Source: Candidatus Cloacimonadota bacterium (GTDB taxonomy: Bacteria; Cloacimonadota; Cloacimonadia; JGIOTU-2). From it: a DNA stretch of 34,347 nt. The notes under the pieces were generated by a model. It was given only the letters and a program-made list of their open reading frames with translations, was not told the DNA's origin and did no database searches. Shown here piece after piece: positions 6,367 through 15,468 of the stretch (position 1 is the first letter of the stretch; every line of letters begins with the position of its first letter). A program made the translations under genes and the position numbers. The stretch is from the NCBI GenBank assembly GCA_030611765.1, contig JAUWPE010000013.1, positions 1 through 34,347 on the forward strand. Reading direction: 5' to 3'.

Positions 6367-9009
6367 ATGCAAGGTACGATTATAAAATCAAATATTAATA
6401 ACATGATATTTACTTTTAAAAAAACTATACTAAAAATTTCAAAATTTGTTAGGAATTTATTCAAAATTCAATATATATTATACTTAATTTTCCTCTTAAC
6501 TATAGTCTATTTCATTTTTAATCCAAGATTTATTTACGAAAAGGGACAATATTTTCTTACATCTTATAATGAGATTGATTATGCTACTCAATTTGCAACG
6601 ATCCCAAATAATTCACAATACGATATTATTTACATTAATCAAAGCACAACATGTACTTACATCAATTATTATAATGAAAAAGAAAACGGAACTTTTAAAA
6701 AGCGACTTTATAATTTCTCTCCAAACACTTTATTGGGAGGTTTGCTTTCAGAATGCTATTACGACACTCTAAACCACAAAATCTTCACAATATTAACGTC
6801 GGATGATGCAGATTATTATTTATTTGAATTATACAATGATGAGAACCCCACTGAAATAAAAAAAGATAAAATATTCCACTATAATATTTACGATTCAATG
6901 CTTGATACGAATATTATAGTTAACAATGTAAAGTTTAACTCATTTGAAGTAGAAAATGATCTCGAGAATCTTTGCGAACTTACACCTTACAAGGATGGAT
7001 ACAAACTCAAAGTTTCAGGTCGAGTAAGAGACTCGATCTTCCCACAAAAAGAAAGTATAAATATTAATAATGCTATCTATGATAGAATCAGTTCGGAAAT
7101 TAGTATCTTATTAAATATTCTTTTCACTCAAGAAGATATTTTTAAAATTATGCAATTTTTTTTAAGGAAAGATTATTATGATTGGAATTATTTTCGGAAT
7201 AAATTCCCCAACCGTGGATTCCTTCCAGCTAAAATTGCAGGAGCAGTTGATATAAATAATGATGGTCACGAAGAAATTCTAATTCTGATATACGGAAACG
7301 AATATATATATAATTTACTAATTTGTTTCGATACTGTCTCTAAATCTATTTTATGGGAAAATAGATACTATAGAACACCAGAACAATTTATTATTCAAGA
7401 TATCGATAACGATAAAATTGAAGAAATAATAATTGGATTCTCACATTCAGATTACAACTTGCCTGTTGAATGGTTTAAGAAAAATCCAAATAAATATAAT
7501 GATGGTGATATAGTTATATTAAATAATAACGGAACGATCAAACTTATCAATAAGAGACCAGCTCTACTTAATTTACCAGGGGAACCGGTCTCAACTATCT
7601 TTAGCACACAATTGAATGATGAGGGTATCCTGATGGGTTATAGATCTAATGGAGAATTGTTAGAGCAAAGGTTTATTTTTTGGAATCTCATTATTAATGA
7701 GATTGATTCATTGAATATATTATGCAACAATTTTATTGGTTTTTGTAAAAATAAATCTTATATTAGAGCATTCTCCTATTGTAATAAGAAAATAATTATG
7801 AAGTTGATTTCACTCGATATAGAATTAAAAAAAACATATAAAAACAAAATTCAGAAAAGATTGCATTCCATTTTGAGTTCAAGTAAGAAAATTTTAAATA
7901 ACAAATATTATATATCACTTCCTCTTTCCATAATTTCTCAAAATCTTAATTTAATATATGATTGTCCCTATAATGCTGTTAAGAATCACATATCCATAAC
8001 TGATAATAATCTATTTTTTATTGAGCAACGGAAGGGATTTACCTATTTATCAAGAATTAATTTTATTGAGAATAGAAAAATAAACCCATATGCTATTCTC
8101 ATTATCTCTTTGGAAATTTTGATTATAGTATCTTTCTTCTTTATAATTAACTTCATATCGTTTCCAATATCTTCTGGAATAAGTAGTTATCTCATTGTTA
8201 TTTCAGTTATAGATAAGATCCATTTCTGGAGAATATATGGGAAAATGAGAGCAATCTATAAACTGCCCAGACATATGTCATTAAAAAGAAATAGTTATTT
8301 AAATATTGTTCGCAGTTTATCAAACAATCATAGAAAAGTAGTATTTCAAAAGAAGAATTTAATATTCAATTACACTGTTTATGAATTAATCTCTAGGGAT
8401 GAATTAATAGTAATTCGCCATATAGTTCATGAACTTAAAAATAAAATACTATTAATCAAGATGATAATAAATAATAAGAATAAATTAAATTCTAATGCCA
8501 GTATCCTATCTATACTTGATTATATCTCAAAGATTGCAGTAACTCTTTCAAATTTGACCAGAATTGAAACTTTATATAAAGAAAAAGTAGAAATGAATCA
8601 ATATTTAAAGCAAATATTATCTGAATATATTAATCATCCCCACTTCACGAAAATTGAATTTGTTAGTGGAATCTCAAATGAATATTTTTACATCGATAAA
8701 CAATTATTTAAAATAGCTTTGAGAAATCTTATCAATAATGCTATTGAGAGTATAACCAATAGCAAGCAAATTATTAAAATAAAGGTGTTAATTGTTGATT
8801 CAAAATTACATGTGGATATTCTGAACCCAGGTCACTTAGAAAGAAATGAAATTGAAAAAATCTATGAGATCGGTTATACAACTAAAAATGAAGGTTCAGG
8901 ATTAGGAATTCCGATATCAAAGATTATAATTGAAAACCATAATGGTATTTTAAGTATCTCAAGTGATGATAACACCATTATGGTTCGAATAATATTACCT
9001 AAAGAATAA
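6367..9009 (+). CDS. membrane sensor histidine kinase with FG-GAP-like repeats
   Basis: 880 residues. One membrane segment (about 37-52) precedes a large presumed periplasmic domain (about 55-570). This domain contains two FG-GAP/VCBS-like calcium-loop motifs, DINNDGHEEILI (295-306) and DIDNDKIEEIII (345-356), suggesting a beta-propeller. Two further hydrophobic segments lie at about 573-597 and 602-618. The kinase core has an H-box HELKN with phosphoacceptor H688, an N-box LRNLINNAIESI (785-796), and a G-box region GYTTKNEGSGLGIPISKII (836-854). The gene is 26 bp upstream of its response regulator, an NtrC-type sigma-54 activator, so it is the cognate kinase. No clear Shine-Dalgarno precedes ATG 6367; M13 (ATG 6403) is an alternative start. 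Base composition is very AT-rich with many Asn, Ile and Lys codons. Confidence 0.85.
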   Translation: MQGTIIKSNINNMIFTFKKTILKISKFVRNLFKIQYILYLIFLLTIVYFIFNPRFIYEKGQYFLTSYNEIDYATQFATIPNNSQYDIIYINQSTTCTYINYYNEKENGTFKKRLYNFSPNTLLGGLLSECYYDTLNHKIFTILTSDDADYYLFELYNDENPTEIKKDKIFHYNIYDSMLDTNIIVNNVKFNSFEVENDLENLCELTPYKDGYKLKVSGRVRDSIFPQKESININNAIYDRISSEISILLNILFTQEDIFKIMQFFLRKDYYDWNYFRNKFPNRGFLPAKIAGAVDINNDGHEEILILIYGNEYIYNLLICFDTVSKSILWENRYYRTPEQFIIQDIDNDKIEEIIIGFSHSDYNLPVEWFKKNPNKYNDGDIVILNNNGTIKLINKRPALLNLPGEPVSTIFSTQLNDEGILMGYRSNGELLEQRFIFWNLIINEIDSLNILCNNFIGFCKNKSYIRAFSYCNKKIIMKLISLDIELKKTYKNKIQKRLHSILSSSKKILNNKYYISLPLSIISQNLNLIYDCPYNAVKNHISITDNNLFFIEQRKGFTYLSRINFIENRKINPYAILIISLEILIIVSFFFIINFISFPISSGISSYLIVISVIDKIHFWRIYGKMRAIYKLPRHMSLKRNSYLNIVRSLSNNHRKVVFQKKNLIFNYTVYELISRDELIVIRHIVHELKNKILLIKMIINNKNKLNSNASILSILDYISKIAVTLSNLTRIETLYKEKVEMNQYLKQILSEYINHPHFTKIEFVSGISNEYFYIDKQLFKIALRNLINNAIESITNSKQIIKIKVLIVDSKLHVDILNPGHLERNEIEKIYEIGYTTKNEGSGLGIPISKIIIENHNGILSISSDDNTIMVRIILPKE

Positions 9010-9034
9010 TTTCTGGCGTAAGGAAGAACTATAA

Positions 9035-10441
9035 ATGCTTAATGGAAAAATTTTAATTCTTGAAGATGATAAAGAATTAGCAAATCATTATTATGATTTA
9101 TTAAAGGAAACGTATATAGTAAAATTATCTCATGCAAGCACAGAATTCTTTAATATATATGATGAATTCGTTCCCGATCTTTTAATTCTTGATATTAAAC
9201 TGAAAAAAAGCTTATTAAATGGTGTGGAAGTATTTGAAAAACTTAAATCCGAACGTACACAGATTCCAAACGTTATTATCCTTTCGGGGGAAGCTTCAAG
9301 AAAGGAAATTGCACAAACAATGAAAATGGGAGCTTATACGTTCATTGAAAAATCTGGGGAGTTTAATGTCGAGAAATTTCTTATTGATGTGAAACAAGCT
9401 CTAAATCAAAAATTGCAAGAAAAATCAAACTTATCTCTACGGCAGGACAAAGAAAATTTAAGAAAAAGTTTGATAAATAGCAATGTTCTTATCGGTGAAT
9501 CTAAGAAAATGAAGTATATAAAAAAACTGATAGCAAAATTTGCAAAGGCAGATATCGACATTTTATTATTGGGTGACACAGGAACAGGTAAAGAAATTAT
9601 TGCCAACCATATATACTGGAATTCTAATCGAGTTGGGAAACCTTTTGTGAAAGTAAATGCCGGTTCTATTCCTGAATCTCTTGTTGATTCAGAATTGTTC
9701 GGTCATAAAAAAGGTTCGTTTACCGGTGCAATTAATGACAAAAAAGGGGTTTTTGAACAAGCCGACAAAGGAATATTATTTTTAGATGAAATCTCAAACC
9801 TTGATTATAACATCCAGGGAAAAATACTAAGAGCCATAGAGTATAAAGAAATCAGGATTTTAGGTGGAGAATTAAAGTATATTGATGCGCGTTATATATT
9901 TGCTACTAATAAAAACCTGGATAAATTGATGAAGGAGCATAAATTCAGAGACGATCTATTCTATAGATTAGAAGGAAATATAATTTATATCCCACCACTA
10001 AGAGAAAGAGAAGATGATATACTTCTCTTGATGAAATACTTTTTCGATCTAGCATCTGCCAAGCATAACGCACTGTTGGATATCTCTCTTAAAGACATTA
10101 AAAATGAATTATTATCATACGAATGGCCTGGGAATGTTAGAGAATTACAAAAATTTTGTGAATATGTTACAATAATGTATAATACTATTACTAATACAGT
10201 AATTCTAAATGAGTTATGCAAAAAATCAACAGGAATAGAACAAAATAATAATGAGATTGAAAATATTCTATCAATTTCGAATTATACAGAAGCTTGCGAC
10301 CATTTCTCAAAAAAATATATTCTATACCATCTCGCGAAAAATAATCGAAAGATTTCTTTGACAGCTCACAAACTCGGATTGGATCGCTCTACATTATATA
10401 AAAAATTAAAGAAATTTAATTTAGATTTTTCAGATTCGTAA
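9035..10441 (+). CDS. NtrC-family sigma-54-dependent response regulator
   Basis: 468 residues, with AAGGAAGA before the ATG. The receiver domain (1-120) has the acidic pocket E10-D11-D12, phosphoacceptor D53 (ILDIKL), S84 and K106. The AAA+ domain (about 150-385) has Walker A GDTGTGKE (180-187), the sigma-54 contact loop GSFTGA (227-232, Ser for the usual Ala) and Walker B ILFLDE (247-252). A Fis-type helix-turn-helix (about 438-462, ISLTAHKLGLDRSTLYKKLK) ends the protein. The length and domain order match NtrC/ZraR-type activators. It should be phosphorylated by the adjacent kinase, bind upstream sites, and drive open-complex formation by sigma-54 polymerase. A near-consensus sigma-54 promoter lies 656 bp downstream at 11097-11112. 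The sigma-54 gene itself is not in the window. Confidence 0.93.
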   Translation: MLNGKILILEDDKELANHYYDLLKETYIVKLSHASTEFFNIYDEFVPDLLILDIKLKKSLLNGVEVFEKLKSERTQIPNVIILSGEASRKEIAQTMKMGAYTFIEKSGEFNVEKFLIDVKQALNQKLQEKSNLSLRQDKENLRKSLINSNVLIGESKKMKYIKKLIAKFAKADIDILLLGDTGTGKEIIANHIYWNSNRVGKPFVKVNAGSIPESLVDSELFGHKKGSFTGAINDKKGVFEQADKGILFLDEISNLDYNIQGKILRAIEYKEIRILGGELKYIDARYIFATNKNLDKLMKEHKFRDDLFYRLEGNIIYIPPLREREDDILLLMKYFFDLASAKHNALLDISLKDIKNELLSYEWPGNVRELQKFCEYVTIMYNTITNTVILNELCKKSTGIEQNNNEIENILSISNYTEACDHFSKKYILYHLAKNNRKISLTAHKLGLDRSTLYKKLKKFNLDFSDS

Positions 10442-10576: not shown

Positions 10577-10886
10577 CATTCTCGAAACCTGATTTATCAG
10601 GTTGAAGAATCTATTAACTTATTTCAATGTCGCTAATTAGAGTCTGTCCGTAAACTTGAAAATCTAGTAGAATTATATTTTTCATTCTGTTTTACCTCAT
10701 CCCCACAGTGAAATAGAAAAAGAGATTTCACGTGGTAAACCTAACCCCTTCTCCTAAAAAGAGAAGGGGAACTTTTTGTCTCCCTCTCCACGATAGGAGA
10801 GGGTCGGGGTGAGGTCGAAAAATGGACTTTACGGATGCACACTAATTAGAGATTCTTCACTCCACTTCGTTCCGTTCAGAATGACA
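10577..10886. repeat. dispersed GTCATTCT/AGAATGAC repeat pair in opposite orientation
   Basis: GTCATTCT...GAAGAATCT (10577-10613) and its reverse-oriented relative AGATTCTTC...AGAATGAC (10849-10886) bracket the MITE-like element. Text of the AGATTCTTC..CAGAATGACA kind is a dispersed intergenic repeat I associate with many environmental bacterial genomes. I see no coding content in the whole 10442-11061 gap. Confidence 0.45.
10633..10849. mobile_element. MITE-like element with terminal inverted repeats and 8-bp flanking repeats
   Basis: CTAATTAG occurs at 10633-10640 and again at 10842-10849. Just inside lie inverted ends AGTCTGTCCGTAAA (10641-10654) and TTTACGGATGCACA (10828-10841), sharing TCCGTAAA and further positions (10 of 14). 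The 201-bp interior has no gene but is rich in hairpins: CCAC-a-GTGAAAT/ATTTCAC-g-TGG, CCCCTTCTC/GAGAAGGGG and CCCTCTCC/GGAGAGGG. This fits a miniature inverted-repeat element with an 8-bp target duplication. One caveat is that CTAATTAG is itself palindromic and so could be part of the inverted repeats. Confidence 0.5.
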
Positions 10887-10975: not shown

Positions 10976-11096
10976 AAGAAATATATTTCAAATAATTAGA
11001 TTGCAAAATCTCATTTTTTCCACAAAACTGTAGATAATAATCCACAATTTTTTATAAAGAATTGAAAATAGATAGTAAAACTAAGCATTATTATTT

Positions 11097-11112
11097 TGGC
11101 ATGATATTTGCA
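11097..11112 (+). promoter_or_regulatory. sigma-54 (-24/-12) promoter
   Basis: TGGCATG-ATAT-TTGCA matches the TGGCACG-N4-TTGCA consensus except for one base, with exactly 10 bp between the invariant GG (11098-11099) and GC (11110-11111). The start would be near 11123, about 40 nt before the ATG at 11164. It is the best such site I found in the window and lies downstream of an NtrC-type activator gene. Upstream, GAAATATATTTC (10978-10989), a perfect 12-bp palindrome, is a candidate but unproven activator site. Confidence 0.8.
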
Positions 11113-11163: not shown

Positions 11164-11601
11164 ATGAAAAAATTCATTTTGATCACGCTATGTCTTCTAT
11201 TTACTTTGTCCATTTCGCTTAATGCTCAAAGTTTCAAATACAAGAAAGGTGACATAGTAAAGGGTCCATGGTACCAAGAGTCTAATTTCTCAATGACCTA
11301 CAAAGGCAAAACTCAACTAATACCTGTCAAGATCAAGATACAGAGAGTCGTTGCTTCTCAACCAACAGATGAGAAATATGTATATGATTCAAGAGGTATT
11401 AAAGCTGGTTCGTACGAGACCTGGGAAGAAGAAATTACTTATCAAGTTATTGTAACTAATCCATATGATTGGGATCAAGGGTGGTTTACATTAGCAGAAG
11501 GCCAAACGCCCACTGACAAAATTTATAAAGCTCTAGAACCAGACAAACCAGACATACCACGAGGGTGGCAAAGAAAAGAGTTTGTCAGAGAAGAAGATTA
11601 A
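11164..11601 (+). CDS. small exported protein under the sigma-54 promoter, unknown function
   Basis: 145 residues from ATG 11164, with GGAGGA at 11153-11158. This start is preferred over any upstream in-frame codon because it has the ribosome binding site, follows the promoter, and begins a clean signal peptide (1-21, ...SISLNAQ). The mature part is a small soluble beta-rich protein with two KYKKGDIVKGPWYQESNFSM-like and YQVIVTNPYDWDQGWFTL segments. I recognise no family. Together with its strong ribosome binding site and the promoter, it appears to be the main product of the regulon. The next gene starts 46 nt later. Confidence 0.8.
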   Translation: MKKFILITLCLLFTLSISLNAQSFKYKKGDIVKGPWYQESNFSMTYKGKTQLIPVKIKIQRVVASQPTDEKYVYDSRGIKAGSYETWEEEITYQVIVTNPYDWDQGWFTLAEGQTPTDKIYKALEPDKPDIPRGWQRKEFVREED

Positions 11602-11647
11602 ATTCAATCGAAATTGACTCTCAAATTATTGAAATGAACGAGTTAAT

Positions 11648-13012
11648 ATGAAGAGAACGAACTATCTAAGGATAAGCACTTGGTGCTTATCCTTTTTTTT
11701 GATTTTTACATTTGTATCAAATTTATACTGTGCAAGACCACCTATATCTTATGAAACGATTGGTCGATTAAGTTATGAATCTCCATTGGAAAGTAGTAAT
11801 ACGGCTTGGAGACAGGTTAAAGAATATGATTTTCCCTGGGTATCTCCACAATATATCATCGGTTGGCAAAGAACTATAAATTCTTCCTTTAATGCAGGAA
11901 TTTATGTTTCGATATTTCCTTCAATGTCACCTTTTGAACCTCAAGAGTATAAAAATCTGATGTATTATGCTTTATCTGATAAATTTAAGGTGAGTTTGGC
12001 TAGTCAGAAGCTGATCACTATTTCGGGATATTATGCTGAGAGTTGCGCAATCGCTTCAGCTAACACCGGTAATGGTCTAGGATTTGAAGTTGGAAATATT
12101 CCAACTACTATAGAATATGTCATCATTCAACTTGAAGGAGAACCACCGAATTTCTATTATCATCCTGCAGTATTAATTATCTTTACGGTTCCGTCGAAAT
12201 TCTATAATGAAATCTATCCGGAATTTAATAAATTTATTGCTGATTTCCATATAGAACCACTACCAGGCGGACCTCCTACTGGGACCATTATCACAAATGG
12301 TTCTCCCAGTGGTACAATAATATACAACAAACCAACGATTTCTGTGAATACAAATGAAGATGCAACTTGTAAGTTTGATTTTTATAATAAATCTTATGAA
12401 GAGATGTCTTATACATTAAGTGGTAATGATAAAATTCATAGCTATACCTTTGATGAAGCGTTGTCAGATGGAAAATATACTATATTTGTAAAAGCGAAAG
12501 ATAATTCTGGGAAAATAAGTTTGGATAGTTATTCTTGGAATATTACAATTGCAAGTGCTGGTGAAGTTGAGCCGATTACAAAAACTCATAAAAAACCATT
12601 CGCTGTTGGATTCCAAAGATCATTGAATGGAATTGAGGGTTTAACTTTGTCTTATCAGGGTTATGATTGGAATCCATTCTTAATGATGGGTGGAAATTTT
12701 ACCAGATCGGATACCATTAACTCTAAACTCAATCTTGGCTTCGGTTTCAATCTTGATTTAGTAGAAATTAATAACTTGAGTCATTCAGGCACCGGCAGAC
12801 TAACTGTTCAACTTGGTGGTTTGGCTGGGATACATCTAGAAAAAACCCAAAAACCTGATTTCTTTATTGAATTACCACTGAAGCTTAAATACGAATTTTC
12901 AAACACAATAAGCATATGGACAGCTGTTGGCATTGGTTATACTTCAGATAGTGATGAAATGGTCATTCCTTTTAGAGATAGAATACCTGTCGGGATAGAA
13001 ATAAGTTTTTAG
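11648..13012 (+). CDS. exported protein with Ig-like segment and C-terminal beta-barrel-like region
   Basis: 454 residues. The signal peptide covers 1-29 (MKRTNYLRISTWCLSFFLIF then ...LYCA). Residues 30-205 form an unrecognised globular domain, about 215-305 resemble a bacterial Ig/fibronectin-like module (SDGKYTIFVKAKDNSGKISLDSYSW), and 310-454 alternate as in an outer-membrane barrel, ending in Phe (PVGIEISF), as outer-membrane proteins often do. It probably sits in the outer membrane. The ribosome binding site is weak. Codons 7-18 are also a perfect transcription-terminator hairpin (11668-11700), so expression may depend on readthrough or on translation of the leader. A terminator follows at 13069. 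Confidence 0.75.
   Translation: MKRTNYLRISTWCLSFFLIFTFVSNLYCARPPISYETIGRLSYESPLESSNTAWRQVKEYDFPWVSPQYIIGWQRTINSSFNAGIYVSIFPSMSPFEPQEYKNLMYYALSDKFKVSLASQKLITISGYYAESCAIASANTGNGLGFEVGNIPTTIEYVIIQLEGEPPNFYYHPAVLIIFTVPSKFYNEIYPEFNKFIADFHIEPLPGGPPTGTIITNGSPSGTIIYNKPTISVNTNEDATCKFDFYNKSYEEMSYTLSGNDKIHSYTFDEALSDGKYTIFVKAKDNSGKISLDSYSWNITIASAGEVEPITKTHKKPFAVGFQRSLNGIEGLTLSYQGYDWNPFLMMGGNFTRSDTINSKLNLGFGFNLDLVEINNLSHSGTGRLTVQLGGLAGIHLEKTQKPDFFIELPLKLKYEFSNTISIWTAVGIGYTSDSDEMVIPFRDRIPVGIEISF
11668..11700 (+). terminator. intrinsic terminator embedded in the signal-peptide codons
   Basis: AAGGATAAGCAC (11668-11679) and GTGCTTATCCTT (11683-11694) are perfectly complementary over 12 bp around a TTG loop, followed by TTTTTT (eight T in a row including the stem end). 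This is a textbook rho-independent terminator. It begins 20 nt after the ATG of the gene at 11648 and 66 nt after the stop of the gene at 11601. It would end most transcripts from the sigma-54 promoter after the first gene unless translating ribosomes keep the hairpin open. Confidence 0.75.
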
Positions 13013-13068: not shown

Positions 13069-13108
13069 CAATCCAGGACATTTTAATTTGTTCTGGATTG
13101 TTTTAATT
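13069..13108 (+). terminator. intrinsic terminator after the barrel-like protein gene
   Basis: CAATCCAGGAC (13069-13079) pairs with GTTCTGGATTG (13090-13100) with one mismatch; TTTTAATT follows. It lies 57 bp after the stop at 13012. It argues against an upstream start for the next small gene, whose earliest in-frame start codon (TTG 13088) is inside this hairpin. Confidence 0.7.
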
Positions 13109-13372: not shown

Positions 13373-13425
13373 GTTCAATAAATGATGAAATTAAACATAA
13401 TTATTTTATAAGGAGTGTCTCAATA

Positions 13426-15468
13426 ATGATACGTAAATATATAAGAATTATTTTGTTGATTTCTCTTGCGTTAACAATACCTCATACATTATTATCCCAG
13501 AATTACTACAATACTTACGGTTATATTGATAGAAACTTAAGACAAGAGACTTTTATTGATGATACAGAAAGAAATGTCTCAATAAAGATTTACAAAGATG
13601 CTGACCAGATCGGAACTGAACGGATAATAAGTGGATTGGATAATTACAATAAAAGAATGGAATTATACCGGGATGTGATCATGAACCTCGTTACCCAGCC
13701 AAAATGCCAGTCTGTTGATCTAATATATGAGGATGCAAAGCAAGGAGTAACAAAGGAAGAGTTATTGGCACAAGCTGCAATATTGTATGAAGCAGGTTCT
13801 TTCTCTACCAAACTTTTAGATTATATCTGCAAAACCGCAAATCTTGCTTACATACCTGGTTCAAACCAGACAGCTCAACTGGTTAATTCCTGGAAGCATA
13901 TCATGCGTCAGGTGAACCAGTCCAACCTTCACAATGTCAGCAATGCCCTAGGTGCAATATCAGTTGTGATGAATACCATAGAAATGGGTGATAAGGTCGC
14001 TATTATAAGCAGCAACTATGTATTGTTAAAAGCTCTTGAGATGGATCTTGCAAAGGAGCGACTCAGATTGCTCAGAGAATATTGTGATATCGAAGATGAT
14101 GCATTTACAGAAGCCCTGGCATTAGTGACAAATGACATGAATACGCTCCCTCAGAGTGATTGGAATAAAATAATTATGACTCTGCACAGCCAGGGGAAAG
14201 AAGTTGAGAAACTCATTATTACAATGGGACAATCGGTCAATACCCTTGGTTCATTACTTGCCAATATGCCCAAACCCAGTCCGCTAACAGGATGGATATA
14301 TGCTGGATTATTTACATGGCAGACCGGTGTTATGATCCAGGAGCACAAGGATCACATGAGAACATCCTCCCTGGCAGCAACGATTTATGCTAATATGAAA
14401 TTTCCGGAACAACCCTCTAAAATATTTGAGCTCTCTGAATATGCACAATATTTATTCGTTGATGAGTTTCGTCTCGCATTTGATAATTGGGTGACCTTAG
14501 TACTTTCCTGGTTCAACCAATCCTGGTATGAGGTAAGACAGGCATGGGAGGATGAAAGTAATTATCTCATTGAACATATTCAGATGAGAAGAGTGAAAGA
14601 AGCAATAAACTTATTTGATATCAATGAAGAAGAAAACCAAGAAATAATAAATATAACAAATCCTAATTCGCAAACAATCTGGTATCAAGATGAAGATATT
14701 GACATAGAATGGAACAATGCGACAGGTAATCAGATTATAGTAATGATTTTTAAAGATAATGTTGAATTAGGTATTTGTCACGATTGGACAGCAAATGATA
14801 ATATATGTAATGGATGGGTTAATCCCGATTGGGGAACTGGAAATAATTTTAGATTAAAAGTCATAGATGAAAATGATAATTATGGATGGAGTGAAGAATT
14901 TACTATTCAATCGGGAAATGGTTTACACGATAATTTTTATTCATGGAATATTTCTTATTGGGAAGGTAATTGGTGGTCCCATAATATCAATCATGGCGCT
15001 TGGCAACCAACTGTTGAAAACGGTTATGCATATATGAAAACAACCGATTATAGTTGGGGACAAATTAGGACGACTCAAATGTGGTCTCCTGGTCAGACAT
15101 TTTCTATAACTCTAATACCATTTTTAGAATCTGGCGGAATAAATGCTGATAAGGCATTTTTTTGCTTGAGTTCCAATTGGGTGTTTTATGATACCGATAT
15201 TGCAGCTGGAATCAAACTAGATAATAGAAATGTTATTGCTTGGTGTGAAGATAATTTTGAGATTGCAATTTTTGGTAGTTATACACCTGGTGATGAAATT
15301 ACTCTAACAATTACTTGGAATACTGATGGCACACTAACTCTAACAGGTGGTAGTGGTTCTTACACAATGGCATCAAGCTTATTACAAGCTAACGAAGCAT
15401 ATTTCGTTATTGTTAACAAAGACAGTATCGACGGAATTGAAGTTGATCAAGTTATAATATGCGAATAA
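13426..15468 (+). CDS. large exported protein with helical body, Kre9/KNH-like domain and C-terminal beta domain
   Basis: 680 residues from ATG 13426, with AAGGAG at 13410-13415; this start gives a signal peptide (1-25, ...HTLLSQ), unlike the upstream alternatives. Residues 30-405 are mainly helical with no family I recognise. Residues about 410-505 (ITNPNSQTIWYQDEDIDIEW...NNFRLKVIDENDNYGWSEEF) resemble the Ser-Thr-rich Kre9/KNH-type beta module of secreted proteins. Residues 508-680 are Trp/Gly/Thr-rich beta structure, like a concanavalin-type carbohydrate-binding fold. An extracellular or surface adhesin is a reasonable inference. It lies in the cluster downstream of the sigma-54 promoter but after a terminator, and may have its own promoter. 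Confidence 0.7.
   Translation: MIRKYIRIILLISLALTIPHTLLSQNYYNTYGYIDRNLRQETFIDDTERNVSIKIYKDADQIGTERIISGLDNYNKRMELYRDVIMNLVTQPKCQSVDLIYEDAKQGVTKEELLAQAAILYEAGSFSTKLLDYICKTANLAYIPGSNQTAQLVNSWKHIMRQVNQSNLHNVSNALGAISVVMNTIEMGDKVAIISSNYVLLKALEMDLAKERLRLLREYCDIEDDAFTEALALVTNDMNTLPQSDWNKIIMTLHSQGKEVEKLIITMGQSVNTLGSLLANMPKPSPLTGWIYAGLFTWQTGVMIQEHKDHMRTSSLAATIYANMKFPEQPSKIFELSEYAQYLFVDEFRLAFDNWVTLVLSWFNQSWYEVRQAWEDESNYLIEHIQMRRVKEAINLFDINEEENQEIINITNPNSQTIWYQDEDIDIEWNNATGNQIIVMIFKDNVELGICHDWTANDNICNGWVNPDWGTGNNFRLKVIDENDNYGWSEEFTIQSGNGLHDNFYSWNISYWEGNWWSHNINHGAWQPTVENGYAYMKTTDYSWGQIRTTQMWSPGQTFSITLIPFLESGGINADKAFFCLSSNWVFYDTDIAAGIKLDNRNVIAWCEDNFEIAIFGSYTPGDEITLTITWNTDGTLTLTGGSGSYTMASSLLQANEAYFVIVNKDSIDGIEVDQVIICE

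Follow-up and report, generated by a model that had tools for sequence, protein, structure and literature searches.

A probable transcription terminator within the signal-peptide codons of an exported-protein gene in Candidatus Cloacimonadota

Results

Genes and features of the locus

The window, i.e., the whole stretch of 34,347 nucleotides that was analysed, constitutes contig C90 in a MAG of 2.23 Mb from a Candidatus Cloacimonadota bacterium. The part of interest contains two neighboring genes for exported proteins, termed gene A and gene B, which are preceded by genes of a sensor kinase and a response regulator:

6367-9009, + strand: membrane histidine kinase with HATPase_c domain (Pfam)
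9035-10441, + strand: NtrC-family response regulator with receiver domain, sigma-54 activation domain and Fis HTH (Pfam)
11096-11112, + strand: sigma-54 type promoter motif TTGGCATGATATTTGCA, GG-N10-GC, upstream of gene A (motif match)
11164-11601, + strand: gene A, small exported protein of 145 aa, orphan, with a strong Shine-Dalgarno sequence (GGAGGA, -9.5 kcal/mol)
11648-13012, + strand: gene B, exported protein of 454 aa beginning MKRTNYLRISTWCLSFFLIFTFVSNLYCA (translation), orphan with a weak Ig-like match
11648-11731, + strand: signal-peptide codons of gene B, which hold the putative terminator (sequence)
11668-11694, + strand: putative terminator stem-loop, perfect 12 bp, inside codons 7-16 of gene B (sequence, consensus scan, RNA fold)
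11693-11700, + strand: U-tract T8, which also encodes Ser-Phe-Phe-Leu of the signal-peptide core (sequence)
13069-13100, + strand: second putative terminator, CAATCCAGGACATTTTAATTTGTTCTGGATTG followed by TTTT, -16.8 kcal/mol, 56 nt past the stop codon of gene B

The motif at 11096-11112 is a perfect sigma-54 match and the only one in the window with 0-1 mismatches, where 0.21 were expected. No sigma-70-like promoter was found on the + strand between 11100 and 11760. The membrane histidine kinase is the likely partner of the NtrC-family regulator, which in turn may activate the promoter of gene A. As sensor kinase and regulator are encoded upstream and a sigma-54 motif is present, gene A is probably their controlled target. 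Orthologues of the kinase/regulator pair (6367-10441) occur in four other genomes (L042-L046, 50-61%). However, this synteny gave no second copy of the A-B unit, and the neighbors differ where they are readable. In one genome (G009) a frame change interrupts one copy of the histidine kinase. Dense inverted repeats (CCCCTTCTC...GAGAAGGGG and CTCTCC...GGAGAGGGTCGGGGTGAGG) that resemble a REP element lie in the intergenic stretch preceding gene A (10745-10816).

No relatives of gene A were found in 125 genomes of the class, and for gene B none that count were found in 60 related genomes, GTDB contigs, plasmids and the PDB. Matches of gene B to RIPK3 in the PDB (E 0.002) were judged spurious. The translation of the frame 11648-13012 bears out the convincing signal peptide that had been assigned to it in the preliminary description. 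The C-terminus of the protein (...VGIEISF) resembles an outer-membrane beta-signal and is what suggests a barrel, since the single-sequence structure model is poor (pLDDT 33); residues 11-28 form one predicted helix, the sole part of the model with any confidence. The Shine-Dalgarno sequence of gene B is weak (-2.5 kcal/mol). Further downstream, the product of gene C (13423-15465) has a domain near residues 370-510 that is found as tandem arrays in three genomes of the class (G026, G094, G029).

A terminator-like hairpin in the first codons of gene B

The arms of the stem, AAGGATAAGCAC (11668-11679) and GTGCTTATCCTT (11683-11694), enclose a TTG loop at 11680-11682. Together with the T8 run the hairpin covers nt 21-53 of the open reading frame, so that the perfect 12-bp stem with eight T described beforehand for codons 7-18 is indeed present at 11668-11700, as seen by sequence, consensus scan and RNA fold alike. 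Five of the 12 base pairs are G-C, the loop has 3 nt and the energy amounts to -15.9 kcal/mol. The fold of the surrounding 161-nt region has a z-score of -2.9, with 2 of 200 shuffles equally good, and the minimum-energy fold consists of the terminator and flanking helices without a competing antiterminator. With a short-loop, G+C-containing stem and a U-tract immediately 3' of it, the sequence has the features of an intrinsic (Rho-independent) terminator. No other copy of this hairpin was found in the genome, and a search of Rfam gave no match above the gathering score, the best being ncr1241 with 26.4 bits (gathering 60, E 0.14). Position 11668-11700 is thus a real feature and, from its sequence, most likely a working terminator common to the two genes.

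The stem begins 66 nt after the stop codon of gene A. As intergenic terminators in this genome mostly lie 15-33 nt past stop codons, this spacing falls in the tail of the distribution. Such terminators are standard 3' ends in the genome, and one could therefore think that the hairpin marks the 3' end of gene A and nothing else and that its overlap with gene B is inconsequential, either because B starts past 11700 or because a promoter lies within the first codons of B. However, the next in-frame ATG of gene B is found only well inside the protein, and with TTG at 11699 as start codon the n-region would be without charge. Among other in-frame starts none was found that retains the positively charged n-region, and a stop codon at 11630 closes the gene B frame upstream of the start at 11648. 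Also the lack of a sigma-70-like promoter on the + strand between 11100 and 11760 argues against this explanation, as does the second case described below, in which n-region and start codon always lie upstream of the stem. We regard it as very unlikely.

Frequency of in-gene terminators in the genome

A sample of ~1.03 Mb of the same MAG was searched for strong hairpin-U sites, which are mostly intergenic. Only two sense sites with dG <= -13 and a strong U-tract lie inside a gene within its first 42 codons, the one in the window and one on contig C87 (C87:569-594). Both are located in signal-peptide codons and in both the stem begins 20-21 nt past the start codon. The few other in-gene hairpins of similar energy have a broken U-tract, lie deep in genes or belong to doubtful short ORFs, and their rate is similar to that on the antisense strand. 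Further near-start in-gene hairpins, e.g., in the Maf gene (L206, L164, L225), were discarded as they are weak or have start codons that are probably wrong.

The null model was synonymous recoding of codons 2-40 of gene B with the codon usage of the genome (20,000 trials). U-rich codons are expected in the hydrophobic core of a signal peptide, and the hairpin of the window might be driven by the protein sequence or by chance, i.e., the signal-peptide codons happen to pair before a U-rich stretch and have no regulatory role. However, only 2 of the 20,000 recodings yielded a hairpin-U site of <= -14 kcal/mol. Over 650 gene starts synonymous recoding predicts 0.12 sites at <= -13 and 0.05 at <= -15, whereas two were observed (-15.9 and -15.2). 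Two sites in one genome sample correspond to p ~0.007, and a lone site at <= -15 to p ~0.05. The expectation of ~0.05 sites is above zero, and therefore a lone chance event would not be absurd for the copy in the window. Given the two cases within one genome and the conservation of the C87 case, chance is an unlikely origin of the window hairpin.

A second case in a TPR-protein gene

The gene on C87 encodes a TPR protein (MTGKNLLKPLILLSGFLFLCSLAYT...) and follows an outer-membrane-type gene, starting one base after that gene's stop codon. The hairpin of the TPR gene, AAGCCGCT-(loop)-AGCGGCTT followed by a T-tract, is located at nt 22-47 of the gene in the signal-peptide codons, and the stem lies 22 nt downstream of the stop codon of the upstream gene. 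As this distance is within the 15-33 nt usual for the genome, the hairpin would most simply be the normal terminator of the upstream gene, overlapped by the signal-peptide codons of the next one. The window has the same layout with a longer spacing. Elsewhere in the class 33 of 35 examined sites with the stem AAGCCGC/GCGGCTTTTT are intergenic, mostly 17-26 nt past a stop codon, and to judge from these positions AAGCCGC...GCGGCTTTTT is an ordinary 3' terminator there.

The TPR gene is shared by Candidatus Cloacimonadota relatives, including Celaenobacter. The stem is retained in genus g1 and in genera g3, g5 and g6 (L137-L150, L167-L175) down to a protein identity of ~35%, with the loop region one codon shorter outside g1. 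The T5 run is invariant across the family, and in every member the start codon and n-region lie upstream of the stem. It had been suggested to look in relatives for stem pairs that covary. In the TPR family the pairing is indeed kept (96.7% of 91 pair cells). However, no compensatory double changes were found, and therefore the conservation of the stem is one of sequence and not of covarying pairs; amino-acid constraint may contribute to it. The stem codons AAG, CCG, GGC and TTT are identical in 7 of 7 lineages, whereas among the conserved columns elsewhere in the gene only 14 of 103 use a single codon, none of them G/C-ending. In the genome of the window AAG, CCG and GGC account for just 28, 21 and 20% of the codons for their amino acids. 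Such frozen, non-preferred codons in the stem point to selection on nucleotides.

Relatives that keep the signal peptide but not the hairpin had been named as evidence against the proposal. Within the TPR family this is the case in two lineages (L142/L169 and L147). G001/AUK288 (L142, L169) has a broken stem, G008 (L147) has none, and in G097 (L144) it is weakened. In L142 and L169 it was lost via changes in both arms without restored pairing, and the start codon is TTG. The TPR gene of L144 is 61% identical to that of genus g1 although G097 belongs to another family (f4), which indicates transfer or misplacement.

In three loci (L145, L149, L150) the hairpin is retained with the upstream gene 323-496 nt away. 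As proof of an independent role of the hairpin this was rejected, because L149 and L150 differ at just 56 of 498 same-residue codons, and it is suggestive only. At position +20 a hairpin might also keep the initiating ribosome in place or shield a portion of the mRNA, i.e., serve as an RNA stability or processing element or as a downstream hairpin that enhances initiation instead of as a terminator. Against this, the U-tract directly follows the stem in both cases, the TPR family shows no variation in the T5 run and its stem occurs at other loci as an ordinary terminator, which makes such a function extremely improbable.

Discussion

Proposed working of the A-B unit

We propose that the terminator at 11668-11700 closes the gene A transcript inside the signal-peptide codons of gene B and that read-through holds B below A, and we assign this reading a probability of roughly 0.6. 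The transcript of gene A, probably driven by sigma-54, would end at 11668-11700, and gene B would be made only from polymerases that read through the terminator, leaving its level below that of A. Termination in vivo, a transcript shared by A and B, and an A:B ratio set by read-through are what we infer from the sequence. In both genes, B and the TPR gene, the start codon and the charged n-region precede the stem; therefore an mRNA that encodes the mature protein always contains the terminator and read-through is needed. The dependence of the downstream gene on read-through would thus follow from the geometry of the locus. That the U-tract fits into a signal peptide is due to the hydrophobic core, which needs UUU, UUG and CUU codons.

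The preliminary description assumed that the coding sequence serves two purposes, and this view has gained from the comparison: the same codons specify a signal peptide and a terminator-like hairpin, and the C87 gene shows this arrangement under nucleotide-level constraint. The attenuation of gene B relative to the small exported protein, as assumed there, would follow to some extent if the hairpin terminates, given that all transcripts that encode the signal peptide cross it. The part assigned to a translating ribosome, which was thought to keep the hairpin open, is unsupported. In E. coli, the terminator tR2 placed 30 bp after an AUG keeps most of its efficiency and translation lowers termination by ~10% only, because the ribosome starts too late (Li et al., 2015; PMC4824070).

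Such control by translation would mean that a ribosome starting at 11648 blocks folding and that poor initiation leads to termination, so that transcription of gene B would require that it can be translated. In both genes the stem starts 20-21 nt past the start codon, a position directly in front of a ribosome that initiates there. Opening of a terminator by ribosomes is established for a leader peptide, in pil1 of Streptococcus gallolyticus, where a ribosome moving into the terminator region can prevent termination (PMC3894217), and for a terminator in E. coli located 5 bp past a stop codon, which showed <10% termination compared with ~90% at 28 bp (PMC4824070). However, the geometry that matches ours is that of tR2 with its ~10% change, and with the weak Shine-Dalgarno sequence of gene B and almost none in the TPR genes initiation would rarely be fast enough. 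Thus, we consider a translation-controlled attenuator quite unlikely. Under the preferred reading, in which read-through sets the level of B, modulation by the ribosomes of gene B itself would be possible and is expected to be small, as they come too late. In the TPR case the ribosome of the upstream gene comes to a halt 22 nt short of the stem, and its influence could be somewhat larger. A transcript ended by the terminator would contain the start codon of the downstream gene but lack a stop codon, and the poor Shine-Dalgarno sequences of B and the TPR genes would fit the avoidance of costly ribosome entry on such non-stop transcripts.

Comparison with known systems

In ampC of E. coli the attenuator hairpin sits in the leader, ahead of the start codon, whereas in the window it lies inside the signal-peptide codons. 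In logic, this is nevertheless the nearest precedent: the terminator of the frd operon doubles as attenuator of ampC, the next gene, which encodes an exported protein (PMC11838884). As in frd-ampC, the hairpins described here follow a preceding gene, in the TPR case at a normal distance past its stop codon (22 nt) and in the window in the tail of the distribution (66 nt). In leader-peptide attenuation as in trp, pyrBI or pil1 the terminator lies within or behind a leader peptide distinct from the regulated gene; here the frame that runs through the hairpin of the window is the structural gene B, no separate leader ORF was seen and the terminator lies in the gene's own codons.

Terminators located less than 100 bp into a coding region are efficient in E. 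coli (PMC4824070). The tR2-in-ORF constructs are alike in that an efficient intrinsic terminator is located 30 bp after the AUG in an operon, but they are artificial and have neither a signal peptide nor evolutionary conservation (PMC4824070). Natural terminators in coding regions are known from 3' ends inside ORFs that score as intrinsic terminators, in E. coli (PMC7815308) and in Borrelia, where 15.2% of the ORF-internal ends do so (PMC10319736). In the sections of these two reports that deal with such ends, they are not described as lying in signal-peptide codons or as conserved at the codon level. A limited literature search brought up no report of signal-peptide codons with a conserved terminator.

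Implications

For the TPR family it seems that the terminator has fixed signal-peptide codons across genera. A wider view would be that signal-peptide codons are a recurrent, selected terminator site in a Cloacimonadota family, that the terminator dictates residues of a signal peptide (KPL...SGFL) and that read-through links how much exported protein is made to the state of the preceding gene, in transcription-translation or in secretion; we consider this rather unlikely at present. Here, in a natural locus, a single run of codons would act as protein sorting signal and transcription terminator at once. It opens the questions of how the downstream genes of such overlapping units are expressed, how the cells handle the resulting non-stop transcripts and whether translation is coupled to transcription in a phylum of which few members have been cultured.
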